From NCBI RefSeq assembly GCF_014197205.1, contig NZ_JACIFD010000008.1, positions 1 through 64,000 of the forward strand: a stretch of DNA of 64,000 bases, read 5' to 3'. A program made the translations under genes and the position numbers. Below, in pieces: positions 26,905-64,000 of the stretch (position 1 is the stretch's first letter; the number at the start of each line of letters is the position of its first letter). Source of the stretch: Canibacter oris. Lineage in GTDB: Bacteria; Actinomycetota; Actinomycetes; Actinomycetales; Microbacteriaceae. Under the pieces are notes generated by a model. That model was not told the origin of the DNA and did not search any database. It was given only the letters and a program-made list of their open reading frames with translations.

Positions 26905-28020
26905 GTGGATCAAAATAACCTGCCGAGCGTAGTTTTCGGCTCCTATAGCGGCTCCGAACTGCTTGATTTTGCCTCCGACGCAGAGCTTTTTACGCGCCTG
27001 GACGCGGATTCTGGCAGATGGTTTGTAGTGGCAGATTTTGAAGGGCGGATCCGCGGGTGGAAGTTTAAAACCGCTCCGATTACCACCGCGACGAGCATGA
27101 TCCACACCCCAACTCTCGCGGCGCAGTGGCGCGGTCCAACCTTGACTGCCTGGCACAGCAGTCTTGATGCTGCCAGCTATCAGGCTGCGGTGCAGCACAC
27201 CCGAGAATGCATCGCAAAAGGCGAGGTTTATCAGGCCAATATCTGCCGTGTGCTGAGTGCCCAACTGCCTGCTGCGCCGCATCCGGCAACCTTGGCTGCG
27301 GTGTTTGCGGGCGGTAACCCAGCCCCGTTTCTAGGGTACATCCATGTTGCTGCTGCGGAGCAACCGGATGCAGACATCTGGCTGACCAGTGCTTCACCGG
27401 AACTCTTCTTGGAAATTAGCCGTGACGATGCGGGCAAACTGACCGCGAAATCAAGCCCCATCAAAGGCACTGCGCGGGAGGCTTCCGGCATCACCTCGAA
27501 AGACGCCGCGGAAAACACCATGATTACCGATCTGATGCGCAACGATCTGTCGCGACTAGCGGTGCCGGGCACCGTCGCAGTATCGGACTTTCTGCAGTTG
27601 GAGGAGCATCCGGGGTTGGTGCATCTGGTATCGACTGTGACTGCCGAGCTACCAGCAAGTGCGGTACAGCATCCGGGCTACTGGCACAATATTTTTGCCC
27701 TCACATTTCCACCTGGATCGGTATCTGGGGCACCGAAAGCAGCCGCATTGGATTTAATTACGAAGCTCGAAACCCATCACCGTGGCCCTTACTGCGGTGC
27801 TCTGGGCTGGGTTGATGCTGCTACCGGCGAGGCTCAGCTCGCGGTGGGTATTCGTTCCTTCTGGTGGGAACAAGAATGTCAGCAGTGCGGCTCTGACATT
27901 TTACATTTCGGCACCGGAGCCGGCATCACCTGGGGGTCTGACCCGGTGCGCGAATGGCAGGAGACTGAGCTTAAAGCGCACCGTCTCATCGCCCTTGCGG
28001 CTTCAGGAGGCACCGCATGA
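26905..28020 (+). CDS. pabB: Aminodeoxychorismate synthase component I
   Basis: 371 aa chorismate-binding enzyme of folate synthesis: chorismate plus ammonia to 4-amino-4-deoxychorismate. The conserved C-terminal domain contains SSPIKGTAR (the Lys separates PabB from anthranilate synthase, which has Ala), ENTMITDLMRNDL, FPPGSVSGAPK and FGTGAGITWGSDP. It is short at the N-terminus compared with TrpE. GTG start, preceded by TAATTT six bases upstream, hinting at leaderless or near-leaderless transcription. Overlaps pabC by four bases. No pabA glutaminase is adjacent. Confidence 0.9.
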   Translation: MDQNNLPSVVFGSYSGSELLDFASDAELFTRLDADSGRWFVVADFEGRIRGWKFKTAPITTATSMIHTPTLAAQWRGPTLTAWHSSLDAASYQAAVQHTRECIAKGEVYQANICRVLSAQLPAAPHPATLAAVFAGGNPAPFLGYIHVAAAEQPDADIWLTSASPELFLEISRDDAGKLTAKSSPIKGTAREASGITSKDAAENTMITDLMRNDLSRLAVPGTVAVSDFLQLEEHPGLVHLVSTVTAELPASAVQHPGYWHNIFALTFPPGSVSGAPKAAALDLITKLETHHRGPYCGALGWVDAATGEAQLAVGIRSFWWEQECQQCGSDILHFGTGAGITWGSDPVREWQETELKAHRLIALAASGGTA

Positions 28021-28910
28021 CGGTGCGTAATTTTATGCCGCTAGTGTGGTTTAACAACACCGTAACCGCTGTCGACGCGGCTGCCGCATCCGGATCTGGT
28101 GTCTCGCTTGCCGATTACCAGACGCTAACAGCTGCGGGGTTGCTGACTGGTGAAGGTTTTTTTGAAACCGTGGCAGTGTATCGTGGCAAGCCCTTCGCGC
28201 TCGCACAACATCTGCGGCGACTGAACGTTAGTTTGCAACGATTTACAATGCGGCCGGTGGCTGCAGAGTTGGTGGATCGCGCCGTCGCAGCCCTGCTTCA
28301 GGCGGTGCCACAACCGGTGCCTGCTGTGTTACGACTGCGGTTAACTGTGTGGCGCTCTGGCACAAACTCTGAGCTACTCAGTGCATTATTGTTGCCGGGA
28401 ACCGGCCCTGAGCTGGGGCAAGTTAACCCCACTTTTGCTACGGTTGTCACCGCTGCCGGGCGTCGCAACGAGCACAGCATTTTAACCGGGCACAAGAGCA
28501 CTTCGTACGCGGAAAACAGTTACACGCTGCGCGCAGCGCAAACGGCAGGTGCGTCTGAAGCGGTGTTTTATAACACCGCGGGCGAGCTTGCCGAAGGAAC
28601 CTGCAGTAATCTCTTGCTGGAGCGAAACGGTGAACTCGTCACTCCAGCCCTCAGCACCGGCTGCCTGCCTGGCATCACTCGGGGTTTGGTGCTGCGGTGG
28701 GCAGCTACGGCGGGCTTACCGATTCGGGAGGCAGCACCCGGTGAGCTGACACTGTCTGTTTTAAGCTCCGGTGATTTCAGTGCTGCGCTCTTGGGCACCC
28801 TGCGCAATGTGCAACACATCACCAGCTGGGATCAGCGACCACTACCGCGTGGCACCCTGCTCACCGCGGTTGCAGAGCTTTTCGCTGCGCAGATGCACAC
28901 AGCACTTTAG
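28017..28910 (+). CDS. pabC: Aminodeoxychorismate lyase (class IV PLP enzyme)
   Basis: 297 aa. The PLP-binding Lys lies in TGHKSTSYAENSY (near residue 160) and the phosphate-binding region in AEGTCSNLLLE, both of class IV aminotransferases. It releases pyruvate from aminodeoxychorismate to give p-aminobenzoate. Fused start/stop ATGA with pabB supports the lyase role over branched-chain aminotransferase. Followed by a bidirectional terminator facing pnp. Confidence 0.85.
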   Translation: MTVRNFMPLVWFNNTVTAVDAAAASGSGVSLADYQTLTAAGLLTGEGFFETVAVYRGKPFALAQHLRRLNVSLQRFTMRPVAAELVDRAVAALLQAVPQPVPAVLRLRLTVWRSGTNSELLSALLLPGTGPELGQVNPTFATVVTAAGRRNEHSILTGHKSTSYAENSYTLRAAQTAGASEAVFYNTAGELAEGTCSNLLLERNGELVTPALSTGCLPGITRGLVLRWAATAGLPIREAAPGELTLSVLSSGDFSAALLGTLRNVQHITSWDQRPLPRGTLLTAVAELFAAQMHTAL

Positions 28911-60420: not shown

Positions 60421-61029
60421 TCACGCGCTGGGAAGCAGCGCAGCGAGTTTCGGCGCTAGCTCACTAAATGCCCGGAAGCGATGGCTGATGCTGTCTTTTA
60501 CCGCCGGCTCCAGCTGCGCCGCCGACACCTGAAAGCCTGCGGGGCGGAAAATTGGATCATATCCGAACCCGTGTTCTCCACTACGCTCCCGGAGAATCTC
60601 CCCTGGCCATTCAGCTACCACCGTAAGCTCGGTAAATTCTCCGTTTGGCTCCGGCAATACCGCAGCCGCGGCGCACACGAAAGCAGCACCGCGCGCCGTG
60701 TCAGGTACATCCTGCAACTGCCACAGCAGCAGTTCGAGGTTGTCGTTGTCACTGCGCTGCGGCCCCGCCCACCGCGCGGAAAAAATGCCCGGTGATCCAC
60801 CTAAGATATCAACCGCAATGCCGCTATCGTCTGCCAGCACAACCTGCCCGGTGCGCTGCGCCGCCGCGCGGGCTTTCAGCAGCGCATTCTGCGCAAACGA
60901 AGTGCCGTTTTCAACCGGCTCCGGGCCGTCATCAGCAACGAACTGATAACCGGGCAGCGCCGGGCCCAAAACCCGCTCAAGCTCCGCTAGTTTATGCGCG
61001 TTCCGACTGGCCAGCACAATCTGTGACAT
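60421..61029 (-). CDS. rdgB: Non-canonical purine NTP pyrophosphatase (RdgB/HAM1)
   Basis: 202 aa. VLASRNAHKLAELERVL, VLADDSGIAVDILGGSPGIFSARWAG and GHGFGYDPIF identify the family, which hydrolyses dITP/XTP to protect DNA. In many Actinobacteria rdgB follows rph and murI; here the neighbouring cell-wall genes are murL-murD2. Confidence 0.95.
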   Translation of the reverse strand: MSQIVLASRNAHKLAELERVLGPALPGYQFVADDGPEPVENGTSFAQNALLKARAAAQRTGQVVLADDSGIAVDILGGSPGIFSARWAGPQRSDNDNLELLLWQLQDVPDTARGAAFVCAAAAVLPEPNGEFTELTVVAEWPGEILRERSGEHGFGYDPIFRPAGFQVSAAQLEPAVKDSISHRFRAFSELAPKLAALLPSA

Positions 61030-61138: not shown

Positions 61139-62527
61139 ATGCAGGCTGAATTTACGTTCCTCCCTCCGCATTACGCTGACAAGCAGGTGTTACTGCCCTA
61201 CCGGGCGCTTGCCGCAGATGGCAGCACCCACGAATTCACCGAGCGCATTACATTCAGCCGCGACCTTGATCGCATCCCGGCCCAGCAGCTTGCGGCCACC
61301 CTGCGCCTACTGTCACTGGCTGCGGGGCTGAGCTACTACAAGGCTTTTGCCCCGGCTCCAATCAGTGTTGCCGCTGGCTTAAACGTGCAAGAACACCGCT
61401 TTTTGCGGGCGATTTTGCGTGGCGGCTTGGGCGAGTTTGCCTTTGTGAATAACATTCCCGAGGCGCTAAACCCGCAGATTTTAGCGCTGCCTACCGGCCG
61501 CGCGGATGCAGCAACCACAGCCGAGGGCGCCGCCAGCGCCGAGGTTGCGGAGGCAGAAAGCCCCGATGCGGGAAACTTTGCAGCAACGCAGGCCACCCCG
61601 CCAGCAATCAGCACGGCACTGTGCGCCATCGGCGGCGGCAAAGACTCTATTGTGTCGCTTCTAGCGTTGCAGCGCGCGGGTGTTACAGTCCACGGTTTCG
61701 CAATCAACCCGAAGCGCCCGATGCTTGACACGGCGGACACCGCTCAGGTGCCACTCATGACCGCGTCACGCCAGCTTGATCCACACCTTTTTGAACTCAA
61801 CAAGCAGGGGTACCCGAACGGCCACGTGCCAGTGACCGCAATTAACTCCCTCATCGCGGTGCTCACAGCGTGGGCGCACGGCCTTGACGCAGTTATTTTC
61901 AGCAACGAAGCAGGCGCCTCCTACGGCAACGTGTCGTGGCACGGCTACGATATCAACCACCAGTGGTCAAAGAGCAGCGCATTTGAGGCGCTTTTGCGCG
62001 AGAGCTTGCCATCAGGCGCACCGCAGTACTGCTCCCTGCTGCGCCCCCTAAACGAGATTCGCATCGCCCGCAACTTTGCTAAGCAGCGGCCGTTCCATCG
62101 GGTTTTTACCAGCTGCAACCGTGCCTTCACAATGGCTGCCGGGGCCGACACTTCCTGGTGCGGCGAGTGCCCGAAATGCCAGTTTATTTTCTTAATGCTT
62201 GCTCCGTTTCTGCCACCGGAAGAGCTCACCGCAATTTTTGGCGGCCGCAACCTTTTTGATGAGGCGCAGCAAGTCGGTGGCTTCCTTGACCTGATGGGCG
62301 AAGCCGCGCGGCAAAAGCCGTTCGAGTGCGTCGGCGAACCGCTGGAATGCCGGGTCGCTTTAACACTCGCTGCAGCGAACCCTGCCTGGCAGCAGACTGC
62401 ACTGTTGCAGCATCCGGCGGTTGCGGCCCTGTACGCTACCGAGGCTGAGGTGGCCGAGGTGTTTGCACCGCAGCAGGAGCGGAATTTTATCCCGGCTAAC
62501 CTCTTGGAGACTGTGCGTGAAATCTAG
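61139..62527 (+). CDS. murL: UDP-MurNAc-L-Ala-L-Glu epimerase MurL
   Basis: 462 aa. Recognised by an opening YRALAADGSTHEFTERI, a central ATP-pyrophosphatase-like loop AIGGGKDSIVSLLAL (about residues 161-175), HGYDINHQWSKSSAFE, then SWCGECPKCQFIFLMLAPF with a Cys triplet. This combination defines MurL, which converts the terminal L-Glu of the nucleotide dipeptide to D-Glu using ATP. The middle 120-150 is a variable Ala/Glu linker. Overlap of 11 bases with a dedicated ligase gene supports the assignment. Divergent from rdgB. Confidence 0.85.
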   Translation: MQAEFTFLPPHYADKQVLLPYRALAADGSTHEFTERITFSRDLDRIPAQQLAATLRLLSLAAGLSYYKAFAPAPISVAAGLNVQEHRFLRAILRGGLGEFAFVNNIPEALNPQILALPTGRADAATTAEGAASAEVAEAESPDAGNFAATQATPPAISTALCAIGGGKDSIVSLLALQRAGVTVHGFAINPKRPMLDTADTAQVPLMTASRQLDPHLFELNKQGYPNGHVPVTAINSLIAVLTAWAHGLDAVIFSNEAGASYGNVSWHGYDINHQWSKSSAFEALLRESLPSGAPQYCSLLRPLNEIRIARNFAKQRPFHRVFTSCNRAFTMAAGADTSWCGECPKCQFIFLMLAPFLPPEELTAIFGGRNLFDEAQQVGGFLDLMGEAARQKPFECVGEPLECRVALTLAAANPAWQQTALLQHPAVAALYATEAEVAEVFAPQQERNFIPANLLETVREI

Positions 62528-63833
62528 AGATCTTATCGGCAAAGACGTGGTTATTTGGGGTGCGGGGCGTGAGGGTCTCGCCGCCCAAGAAATGCTGCGA
62601 CAGCTTGGCATCGTCGCCGACACCGTTATCACAGGGGGTGCGGATCACGCCGCCGCAATGGCTGCCCTGCAACGCGCTGAGGTGATTGTGAAGTCTCCGG
62701 GCATCCCGCACACGGCGCCGGAATATCAAGCATTGCGGCAAAGCGGCGTGGTTTTCACCTCGCTGATGGATCTGTGGTTGAGCGACTACGGTGATCGTAC
62801 GGTAGCGGTGACCGGCACCAAGGGCAAAAGCACCACCTCCAGCATGGTGAACCATATTTTTAACACTGTTGGCGTGCACGCGGTGATTGGCGGCAACCTC
62901 GGGGTGCCCTTAACCACTCAGTTGGGCGCAGCTGCCGCTGTGGTTGTTGCTGAGGTTTCCAGCTACCAGGCGGCGGAGGTGACCGCTTCCCCGCGGTTCG
63001 GCGTCTTCACTTCGCTGTATCCGGAGCATTTACCGTGGCACGGCGATTTTGCCACCTATGTCAGCGATAAAACCAACCTGTTTGCGCACGGTTGTGCCCA
63101 TCTGGTAACCGCCACGGCTGAGCTACGCGACACTCTGCGTGACGCGCTCGGCGCAGCAGCTGCAAACACTGTGGTAACCCTGCCCAGCGAGCTGGGACTG
63201 CACGCCAGCGCTGCCGGCATCAGCTGGGATGGGGTCGGGTCGCTTGCTGCAGCCGAGCTGCAGTTCCTGGGCTTACACAATTTCCACAACGCCACTCTGG
63301 CTTTGACGGTGTGCGCACTGCACCCGCTGCTGCAACAGGTACCGCGCGCAGCACTGCTGACAGCACTTACCAGCTTCAAACCTTTGGCAACCCGCTTGGA
63401 GCGAGTGCCCACCAGCGATGGCCGCCGCTGGATAGACGACGGTCTGGCAACAGCTCCGGAGGCAGTAATTGCGGCATTACAAAGCTGTGGTGGATCCGGC
63501 AAAACGGCGCTGCTGTTTGGCGGTGCTGAGCGGAACCTCGATTTTGGGGTGCTGCGTGATTATCTACGGGAGACACGCGATACTGCTAGCGCTGATCTGA
63601 CGGTGATTGCGATGGGCCCGGCAGGACAGCGTTTTGCCGAGCTGGTCGGCACTGATTTTCCGCGGCTACAGGTAGCTGATAGTTTTGCCGCTGCGGTTAC
63701 CGCTGCACGCAGCCTCACCGCCGCCGGAGATACAATCTTGCTCTCCCCTGGCGCCCCGAGCTTTAACGAGTTTAAAGACTACGAGGAGCGGTCGGCAGCT
63801 TTCAAAGCTGAGGCACGGGCGAGCAGCCAGTAG
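62517..63833 (+). CDS. murD2: UDP-MurNAc-L-Ala--L-Glu ligase MurD2
   Basis: 438 aa from GTG 62517 with GGAGA at 62506-62510; the frame continues upstream only in overlap with murL. Mur ligase: ATP loop VTGTKGKSTTSS, VVAEVSSYQAAEV, then a C-terminal domain with TRLERVPTSDGRRWIDDGLATAPEAV. Sequence is MurD-like but the gene is coupled to murL, so L-Glu rather than D-Glu is the expected substrate. A standard murD would be expected elsewhere only if D-Glu is also used. Confidence 0.82.
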   Translation: MKSRDLIGKDVVIWGAGREGLAAQEMLRQLGIVADTVITGGADHAAAMAALQRAEVIVKSPGIPHTAPEYQALRQSGVVFTSLMDLWLSDYGDRTVAVTGTKGKSTTSSMVNHIFNTVGVHAVIGGNLGVPLTTQLGAAAAVVVAEVSSYQAAEVTASPRFGVFTSLYPEHLPWHGDFATYVSDKTNLFAHGCAHLVTATAELRDTLRDALGAAAANTVVTLPSELGLHASAAGISWDGVGSLAAAELQFLGLHNFHNATLALTVCALHPLLQQVPRAALLTALTSFKPLATRLERVPTSDGRRWIDDGLATAPEAVIAALQSCGGSGKTALLFGGAERNLDFGVLRDYLRETRDTASADLTVIAMGPAGQRFAELVGTDFPRLQVADSFAAAVTAARSLTAAGDTILLSPGAPSFNEFKDYEERSAAFKAEARASSQ

Positions 63834-63930: not shown

Positions 63931-63999
63931 TTACAGTGTCGTGGATAGCGCCTCGCGCTGTTTCTCAAAGAGCTGCTGAGCGGCATCGCCCGCAAGCTG
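63931..63999 (-). CDS. Partial C-terminus of a minus-strand gene
   Basis: On the minus strand, reading into the window from its right edge, 22 codons end in TAA at 63931-63933. The peptide (QLAGDAAQQLFEKQ, then REALSTTL) is a helical Gln/Ala/Glu tail. Too short to identify; convergent with murD2. The gap 63834-63930 holds nothing recognisable. Confidence 0.4.
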   Translation of the reverse strand, partial: QLAGDAAQQLFEKQREALSTTL

Positions 64000-64000
64000 C

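Follow-up and report, generated by a model that had tools for sequence, protein, structure and literature searches.

A route to peptidoglycan in which the ligase MurD2 adds L-glutamate (L-Glu) and MurL epimerizes it is known in Xanthomonas oryzae, Micromonospora and Salinispora (PMC8788868). Both reactions and the AMP product have been published for species other than the one treated here, and an adenylate intermediate is a hypothesis there too (PMC8788868). MurL requires ATP and Mg, forms AMP and is without a known domain (PMC8788868, PMC5808125). Here we describe a murL–murD2 pair in a window of 64,000 nucleotides from the actinobacterium Canibacter oris (Microbacteriaceae; positions 1–64,000 of NZ_JACIFD010000008.1, contig C8 of the assembly). 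Gene content and conserved residues make it highly likely that MurL–MurD2 replaces the canonical D-glutamate (D-Glu) route in this organism, murI, the glutamate racemase gene, being gone and the MurD of the division and cell wall (dcw) cluster being left without its C-terminal domain and ATP site. The pair adds a new case to a known pathway and broadens its taxonomic range; the truncated dcw MurD is the part that specialists would not expect.

The locus resembles the described pathway (PMC8788868) in that MurL and MurD2 occur together, with no MurI and no D-amino-acid transaminase over cut-off, and in the Glu, Arg, Pro and Phe of MurD2. It differs in that the pair often stands at the place held by murI in congeners, and in that a truncated MurD stays in the dcw cluster. 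The taxa named in the available text of that paper are Gamma- and Alphaproteobacteria and Micromonosporaceae, whereas the present case belongs to Microbacteriaceae; further cases found here come from Propionibacteriaceae, Nocardioidaceae, Mycobacteriaceae, Frankiaceae, and metagenome-assembled genomes (MAGs) labelled Bifidobacteriaceae and Intrasporangiaceae.

The murL–murD2 Pair

The gene murL extends on the forward strand from an ATG at 61139 to a stop codon ending at 62527 (462 amino acids), and is identified by its match to NCBIfam NF041275, by its identity to other MurLs and by a predicted QueC/QatC-like fold. The preliminary description had recognized a MurL-type protein with GGGKDS and CGECPKC, overlapping by 11 bases a MurD-like ligase, and each element of this description was borne out. 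NF041275 is matched at E 4.6e-100 over residues 29–461; GGGKDS is encoded at 61631–61648 (residues 165–170) and CGECPKC at 62159–62179 (residues 341–347, with Cys341, Cys344 and Cys347), both on the forward strand; the overlap spans 62517–62527 when the GTG at 62517 is taken as the start of murD2; and the ligase scores 265.8 bits against TIGR01087 (cut-off 211.95). Another cysteine, Cys326, lies in an SCNR segment (62111–62122, forward strand), and GGGKDS and all four cysteines are invariant in 41/41 MurLs (the window and 40 named loci). The 18 Microbacteriaceae MurLs that were aligned share 69 invariant columns. The window MurL is 36–56% identical to the MurLs of other bacteria and falls inside the MurL tree; its identity to the MurLs of Salinispora, Micromonospora and Pseudoxanthomonas, genera with assayed members, is 40–45%, and this full-length homology places it in the MurL functional family.

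The gene murD2 (62517–63833, forward strand, 438 amino acids) encodes a MurD-type ligase that is expected to add L-Glu; it matches TIGR01087 and the Pfam domains Mur_ligase_M and Mur_ligase_C. The program that listed open reading frames (ORFs) opened it at a TTG at 62421. The GTG at 62517 is preferred because GGAG, the likely ribosome-binding site (62506–62509, forward strand), lies 7 bases upstream and because the resulting N-terminus is near that of E. coli MurD. In a sequence search the best solved-structure match was the MurD 2jff (E 1.7e-32), which we take to be the E. coli enzyme; for MurL, the search gave no solved structure at E up to 0.001. The two genes are adjacent in all 21 murL-positive genomes of the family survey described below; together with the NF041275 and TIGR01087 matches, this indicates that their pairing is not due to chance.

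In X. oryzae MurD2, Glu197, Arg358, Pro433 and Phe435 correspond to Asp182, Lys348, Ala414 and Leu416 of E. coli MurD, and the Glu and Arg fix the chirality and specificity for L-Glu (PMC8788868). The window MurD2 carries Glu, Arg, Pro and Phe at these four positions; its MurD2-type residues are Glu170, Leu310, Arg339 and Pro414, Glu170 and Arg339 being the pair at Asp182 and Lys348. Like canonical MurD, it has the Mur ligase fold, the P-loop Lys and the carbamylated-Lys position; unlike canonical MurD, Asp182, Lys319 and Lys348 are replaced. Among 40 MurD2s (one from the window, 20 from the other murL-positive genomes of the family and 19 from the 80 named loci), Lys348 is changed to Arg and Lys319 to Leu or Ile in 40/40, Asp182 to Glu in 33/40, and Ala414 to Pro in 36/40; Lys348, Lys319 and Asp182 are all kept in 13/13 canonical Microbacteriaceae MurDs. 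The change at Lys319 deserves attention because an E. coli MurD mutant with Lys319 replaced by Thr accepts L-Glu (PMC8788868).

Predicted Fold and Chemistry of MurL

A structure of MurL was predicted from an alignment of 41 rows that combined the window with public loci (pLDDT 91.3, pTM 0.91). The model matches QatC with a Z-score of 18.7 (4.5 Å over 318 residues), QueC with 13.8 and 13.6, and Cap9 with 13.5, well above the next row at 11.1; the lower matches (Z ≤11.1) are PP-loop (ATP pyrophosphatase) proteins as well, argininosuccinate synthase, TtuA and LarE among them. The prediction is thus that MurL is a PP-loop ATP pyrophosphatase of the QueC/QatC type, in which GGGKDS would be the PP-loop; this fits the published conversion of ATP to AMP. 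In QueC, clustered cysteines hold a metal, and by analogy the four invariant cysteines of MurL may form a metal site. The likeness to QueC, QatC and Cap9 comprises the predicted fold, a GGxDS-type loop and clustered cysteines. MurL differs from them in being an epimerase of a UDP-sugar peptide, in its own N-terminal domain (approximately residues 1–120), in having no Pfam match and in its identity of 12–18%. No link between MurL and QueC was found in the literature searched, which included a term search of QueC-family papers.

Several results speak against this picture of MurL. The protein reaches 335 bits with NF041275 (the MurL_Xanthomonadales equivalog), below the curated cut-off of 700. 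It has no Pfam domain at E up to 1, the QueC family PF06508 included. Taken as a whole, the Foldseek match to QatC (E 5.1e-4, 439 columns, TM 0.41) is weak, and the evidence for a PP-loop consists of a predicted model, Z-scores and a single motif. As to the first point, the MurLs of Salinispora (407 bits) and Micromonospora (411) are also below 700 and that of Pseudoxanthomonas (726) is above it; since Salinispora is a genus with an assayed member (PMC8788868), the cut-off appears to mark the Xanthomonadales group. On sequence grounds the window protein is accordingly assigned to the MurL family and is not filed in the NF041275 subfamily; in the same way it may work like QueC and is not filed as a member of PF06508.

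In the mechanism that we propose, MurD2 would act as the L-Glu-adding ligase and MurL would bind ATP through its QueC/QatC-type PP-loop, adenylate the α-carboxylate of the terminal L-Glu by α–β cleavage of ATP (yielding AMP and an acyl-adenylate), invert Cα by loss and regain of a proton, and hydrolyze the adenylate to give the D-Glu product used by MurE. Translation of murL and murD2 is probably coupled through their 11-base overlap. MurL and MurD2 would then stand in for the canonical enzymes that supply and use D-Glu, and free D-Glu, MurI and a D-Glu-using MurD would be dispensable. Gene content, residues, the predicted fold, synteny and the remnant MurD come from the sequence itself; that the window proteins perform the reactions published elsewhere, that their translation is coupled and that the cell depends on them is inferred.

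D-Glutamate Supply in the Genome and the Family

The preliminary description had proposed that this actinobacterium uses or can use the MurL–MurD2 route, and had suggested that the genome be searched for murI, a D-amino acid aminotransferase and a second murD. Gene content and the residues of MurD2 support the proposal: none of the three is present over cut-off, and MurD2 is accompanied only by the truncated dcw MurD. In the assembly (1,652,031 bases in 24 contigs, 99.3% complete) neither PF01177 nor TIGR00067 detects a glutamate racemase; TIGR00067 gives 211–232 bits in three murL-negative congeners. Of the two class-IV pyridoxal phosphate enzymes, one is IlvE (357 bits against a cut-off of 307) and the other is PabC-like; they score 24–40 bits as D-amino-acid transaminases, neither over the cut-off of 277, so that the gene content of the genome, as far as 24 contigs represent it, is that of the pathway: no racemase and no D-amino-acid transaminase. 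The PabC-like protein (28017–28910, forward strand) was rejected as a D-amino-acid transaminase at 39.8 bits with D_amino_aminoT, where 277 are needed; its best model is aminodeoxychorismate lyase (91.5 bits), and its gene adjoins a chorismate-binding ORF. A protein search of the genome with MurD2 as query gave no other match, and in a TIGR01087 scan MurD2 was the only gene over the cut-off, with the dcw remnant below it.

In a survey of 398 Microbacteriaceae genomes, sampled evenly from a larger group, murL was found in 21 and PF01177 in 374 (Fisher p 2.6e-23 for the one against the other). Three murL-positive genomes (G132, G208, G316) have a PF01177 match, which was rejected as MurI: TIGR00067 finds nothing in two of them and 23.8 bits in the third (cut-off 146.65). 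PF01177 by itself therefore overcounts MurI, and a MurI-grade racemase is present in 0/21 murL-positive family genomes. For G348 and G400, lack of PF01177 was read from their absence among the 374 positive rows. The 24 genomes without PF01177 comprise 18 with murL and six others; the latter include G018, G088, G200 and G234, in which TIGR00067 was likewise not found. G018, G088 and G234 are without PF01177, TIGR00067 or MurL, yet have a full-length MurD; the transaminase-like candidates of G088 and G018 score 108 and 65 bits, versus 29 in the window genome, with none over 277.

TIGR00067 was also searched in 30 murL-positive genomes from the 80 named loci, and none has a match over the cut-off. 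The nearest is Parafrankia sp. EUN1f, which reaches 141.4 of the required 146.65 bits and is likely to have a true MurI; all other matches are at most 27.9 bits. This strain (L220, L094) has both routes, with the near-cut-off MurI, a full dcw MurD and murL–murD2.

The Truncated MurD of the dcw Cluster

The dcw MurD gene of the window genome (contig C5, 8442–9512, reverse strand; 356 amino acids) overlaps the last 14 bases of mraY and is followed 3 bases later by ftsW, both neighbors being confirmed by Pfam. It covers positions 1–317 of the 464 of a MurD model and scores 62 of the 211.95 bits required by TIGR01087. Its P-loop and the 182–198 region are eroded, and it does not show the C-terminal ligase domain, P-loop Lys and carbamylated Lys of a canonical MurD. 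Among genomes without murL, 13/13 and 71/72 match the MurD profile over its full length, the miss being a genome that is 78% complete. Nine dcw control loci were among the 13 genes used to build the MurD hidden Markov model (HMM) and score highly by construction; TIGR01087 serves as the independent control.

The same architecture recurs across murL-positive genomes. In 18/21 of the family, a single intact ORF between mraY and ftsW matches the model from position 1 to 312–322; in G219 the span is the same and is split by a frameshift; and in G208 and G068 the dcw MurD is full length with Arg302 and Lys348 changed, G068 having lost Lys198 and Lys319 as well. An unaltered canonical MurD is therefore found in 0/21. 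The dcw region was examined in 20 of the 30 named genomes. Eleven of these (Microbacterium, Arachnia, Nocardioides, Pontimonas and MAGs) have a truncated MurD ending at 314–325, seven (Micromonospora, Salinispora, three mycobacteria, Pseudoxanthomonas and a Geminicoccaceae MAG) lack a MurD between mraY and ftsW, in Longispora only a central-domain piece with the same end as the truncated genes is left, and the Parafrankia gene is full. The match ends at model position 312–325 in 30/30 truncated MurDs. In E. coli MurD this corresponds to residue 296–305 (literature numbering) in 23/29 rows, presumably the border of the C-terminal domain; in the other six (G000, G003, G168, M. sorbitolivorans, M. 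nanhaiense and a Propionibacteriaceae MAG) the aligned end is inflated by the tail, and the HMM end was used. No report of a truncated dcw MurD was found in the accessible parts of the open literature searched, where the phrase was met only for a two-hybrid construct.

Mycolicibacterium frederiksbergense, M. bacteremicum and Mycobacterium yunnanensis (L216, L217, L218; with L112, L137, L111) carry murL–murD2 and lack both a TIGR00067 match and a MurD between mraY and ftsW; mycobacteria are not among the MurL taxa named in the available portion of PMC8788868.

Constraint on the Truncated MurD

As judged from codon comparisons, the truncated MurD, present in 18/21 survey and 11/20 named genomes, is under protein-level constraint, measured on the pairs compared. 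Of 12 truncated–truncated pairs, eight are at least 65% identical. Over MurD domains 1–2, seven of these gave a ratio of nonsynonymous to synonymous rates (dN/dS) of 0.08–0.25: G278–G186 0.08, G400–G316 0.08, G348–G236 0.12, G106–G264 0.14, M. sorbitolivorans–M. nanhaiense 0.20, G168–G106 0.21 and M. stercoravium–M. gubbeenense 0.25. With dS >2 in two of the seven their figures are rough; the eighth pair has an infinite dS. Most change is at third positions in 12/12 pairs. In the same seven pairs dN/dS of ftsW is 0.04–0.20, the truncated MurD being slightly more relaxed in six and far from neutral. Distant pairs were not used either way (Nocardioidaceae 0.58 and 0.48, where ftsW gives 0.48 and 0.66; G303–G168 0.33; G000–G003 0.16).

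The constraint has moved from the ATP-site half of these domains towards residues 201–298, now the least changing part. Mean pairwise identity in truncated MurDs is 0.40 (residues 2–93), 0.37 (94–200) and 0.48 (201–298), compared with 0.46, 0.66 and 0.51 in canonical MurD. The P-loop Lys115 is kept in 5/29 (G003 being one of the few with a P-loop), Asn138 in 3/29, Glu157 in 7/29, His183 in 1/29 and Lys198 in 2/29, each of them being kept in 13/13 canonical MurDs; Asp and Arg near residue 246 are kept in 29/29. Truncation also appears to have arisen repeatedly. A single clade of the 29 truncated MurDs is rejected by the approximately unbiased (AU) test (p 0.0005), as is one of the 23 Microbacteriaceae genes (p 4.5e-7); well-supported branches require at least three changes of state, and parsimony requires five. 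G003 groups with three full-length congeners (100/99), and G078 with full-length genes from its own genus and from another (100/99).

Intact ORFs, several origins, the same cut border, loss of ATP-site residues and low dN/dS together make the truncated MurD look like a retained pseudoenzyme rather than a product of decay. Our most far-reaching interpretation, offered tentatively and at somewhat less than an even chance, is that MurL–MurD2 has taken over catalysis, that the dcw MurD of many Actinomycetota repeatedly loses its C-terminal, amino-acid-binding domain and ATP site, and that domains 1–2 are kept between mraY and ftsW by purifying selection for a second, non-catalytic job exerted mainly via residues 201–298, which would define a new class of cell-wall pseudoenzyme. 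As a guess, this job could be that of a docking partner in a MraY/MurG/FtsW precursor complex. In Thermotoga, MurD, MurE and MurF bind MurG and MreB, and a precursor complex has been argued (PMC6420597, PMC4929429); in Acinetobacter, a partner protein binds the central part of MurD, the binding being mapped to residues 53–103, and 55–354 binds (PMC12208494). A docking role would agree with these data, but it cannot be needed in all murL users, because the gene is lost in the Micromonospora, Salinispora, mycobacteria and Proteobacteria examined.

The same losses, and the remnant in Longispora, are in favor of the truncated gene being a decaying pseudogene, or a spacer keeping ftsW coupled to mraY. 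The frameshift in G219, the values of 0.33–0.58 in some distant pairs and the slow accumulation of stops in high-GC genomes agree with this explanation. We consider it unlikely in view of the single open frame in 29/30 genes, the low ratios of the seven closer pairs, the end of the match at model position 312–325 in 30/30 although the truncated genes form no single clade, and the shift of constraint towards residues 201–298. About equally unlikely is that the truncated MurD binds UDP-MurNAc-peptide or a nucleotide and so regulates MurD2/MurL or MraY: the N-terminal UDP-binding-type domain is kept, some of its glycines in 29/29 (alignment positions 13 and 29, one above the literature numbering), but the known ligand residues Lys115, Asn138, His183 and Lys198 are mostly lost.

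A GACAC-type element upstream of ftsW was considered as the reason for retention of MurD and rejected, being absent from many loci. The element CGACACGCG recurs upstream of ftsW in many loci (L072, L073, L063, L205) and is absent from many others; we take these elements to be WhiA-like.

Dependence on the Route and Implications

Because no racemase or D-amino-acid transaminase is found over cut-off and the sole MurD over cut-off is a MurD2 with L-Glu-type residues, the organism very probably depends on the MurL–MurD2 route; a racemase in an assembly gap, given 24 contigs, or one of a fold outside PF01177, would tell against this. That the pair is a dispensable accessory, with D-Glu from uptake or an unrecognised racemase and MurD2 an ordinary MurD, draws on the same fragmented, 99.3% complete assembly and on Parafrankia EUN1f, whose gene content means that two routes can coexist, and is very improbable in the face of 21 murL-positive family genomes with neither a MurI-grade racemase nor an unaltered canonical MurD and of a ligase bearing MurD2-type residues.

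These cases widen the range of bacteria whose wall seems independent of MurI. Drugs against MurI or canonical MurD may fail on bacteria with murL–murD2, and inhibitors of MurL or MurD2 might act. The recurrent loss of MurD domains is a natural experiment on which part of a Mur ligase survives once catalysis is removed. Whether Mur ligases are also structural parts of a precursor complex has been debated on the basis of binding data (PMC6420597, PMC4929429), and a MurD that is retained though apparently dead opens this question to testing; if our reading is true, the truncated MurD separates a second, non-catalytic job from ligase activity.

Genomic Context and Origin of the Pair

In the window genome, murI is absent and murL–murD2 is inverted between rph and rdgB. 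The gene rdgB (60421–61029, reverse strand), for an XTP/dITP diphosphatase of the Ham1 family, is identified by PF01725 (E 7e-54) and synteny; the 3′ end of rph (RNase PH; 63931–64000, reverse strand) is identified by RNase_PH domains, the gene extending past the window to contig position 64665. In all three murL-negative congeners (G001, G002, G004) the order is signal peptidase–RNase HII–murI–rph–rdgB on one strand, gene names following the Pfam matches of the copies in the window genome, and rph of the window is 69–77% identical to the ORF that separates murI from rdgB in these three. In the congener G003, murL–murD2 is in the place of murI on the same strand, with four extra genes in front. 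Gene order shows, for this genus only, that murI formerly occupied the site of murL–murD2. In 17/20 Microbacteriaceae loci with enough flank, the gene that directly follows murD2, in the same orientation, is rph. The window departs from this order, as do L084, where the pair comes after rdgB, and G208, where neither rph nor rdgB lies in the 17 kb covered.

In the MurL tree, the window groups with Microbacterium, Arachnia and two MAGs (100/96). G003 joins four mycobacteria (97/87), Parafrankia being the next to join them (99/83), and 18 other Microbacteriaceae rows stand next to Micromonosporaceae (100/98). The branches of the window and G003 are long, so their placement calls for caution. A single clade for these two is rejected (AU p 0.002), as is one for all 25 Microbacteriaceae rows (AU p 2e-6), and these tests indicate that murL–murD2 was acquired more than once in Microbacteriaceae, and twice in the genus of the window.

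In L092, a MAG labelled Candidatus Saccharibacteria, murD2 precedes murL; the pair may have been transferred, or the contig may have been binned wrongly. A related set of four genes, for a response regulator, a histidine kinase, an ABC-2 permease and an ABC ATPase (L059:14627-18001, L224:13317-17017), immediately precedes murL in G003 and is located approximately 9 kb away from murD2 in the window genome, even though the murL genes of the two genomes differ in origin.

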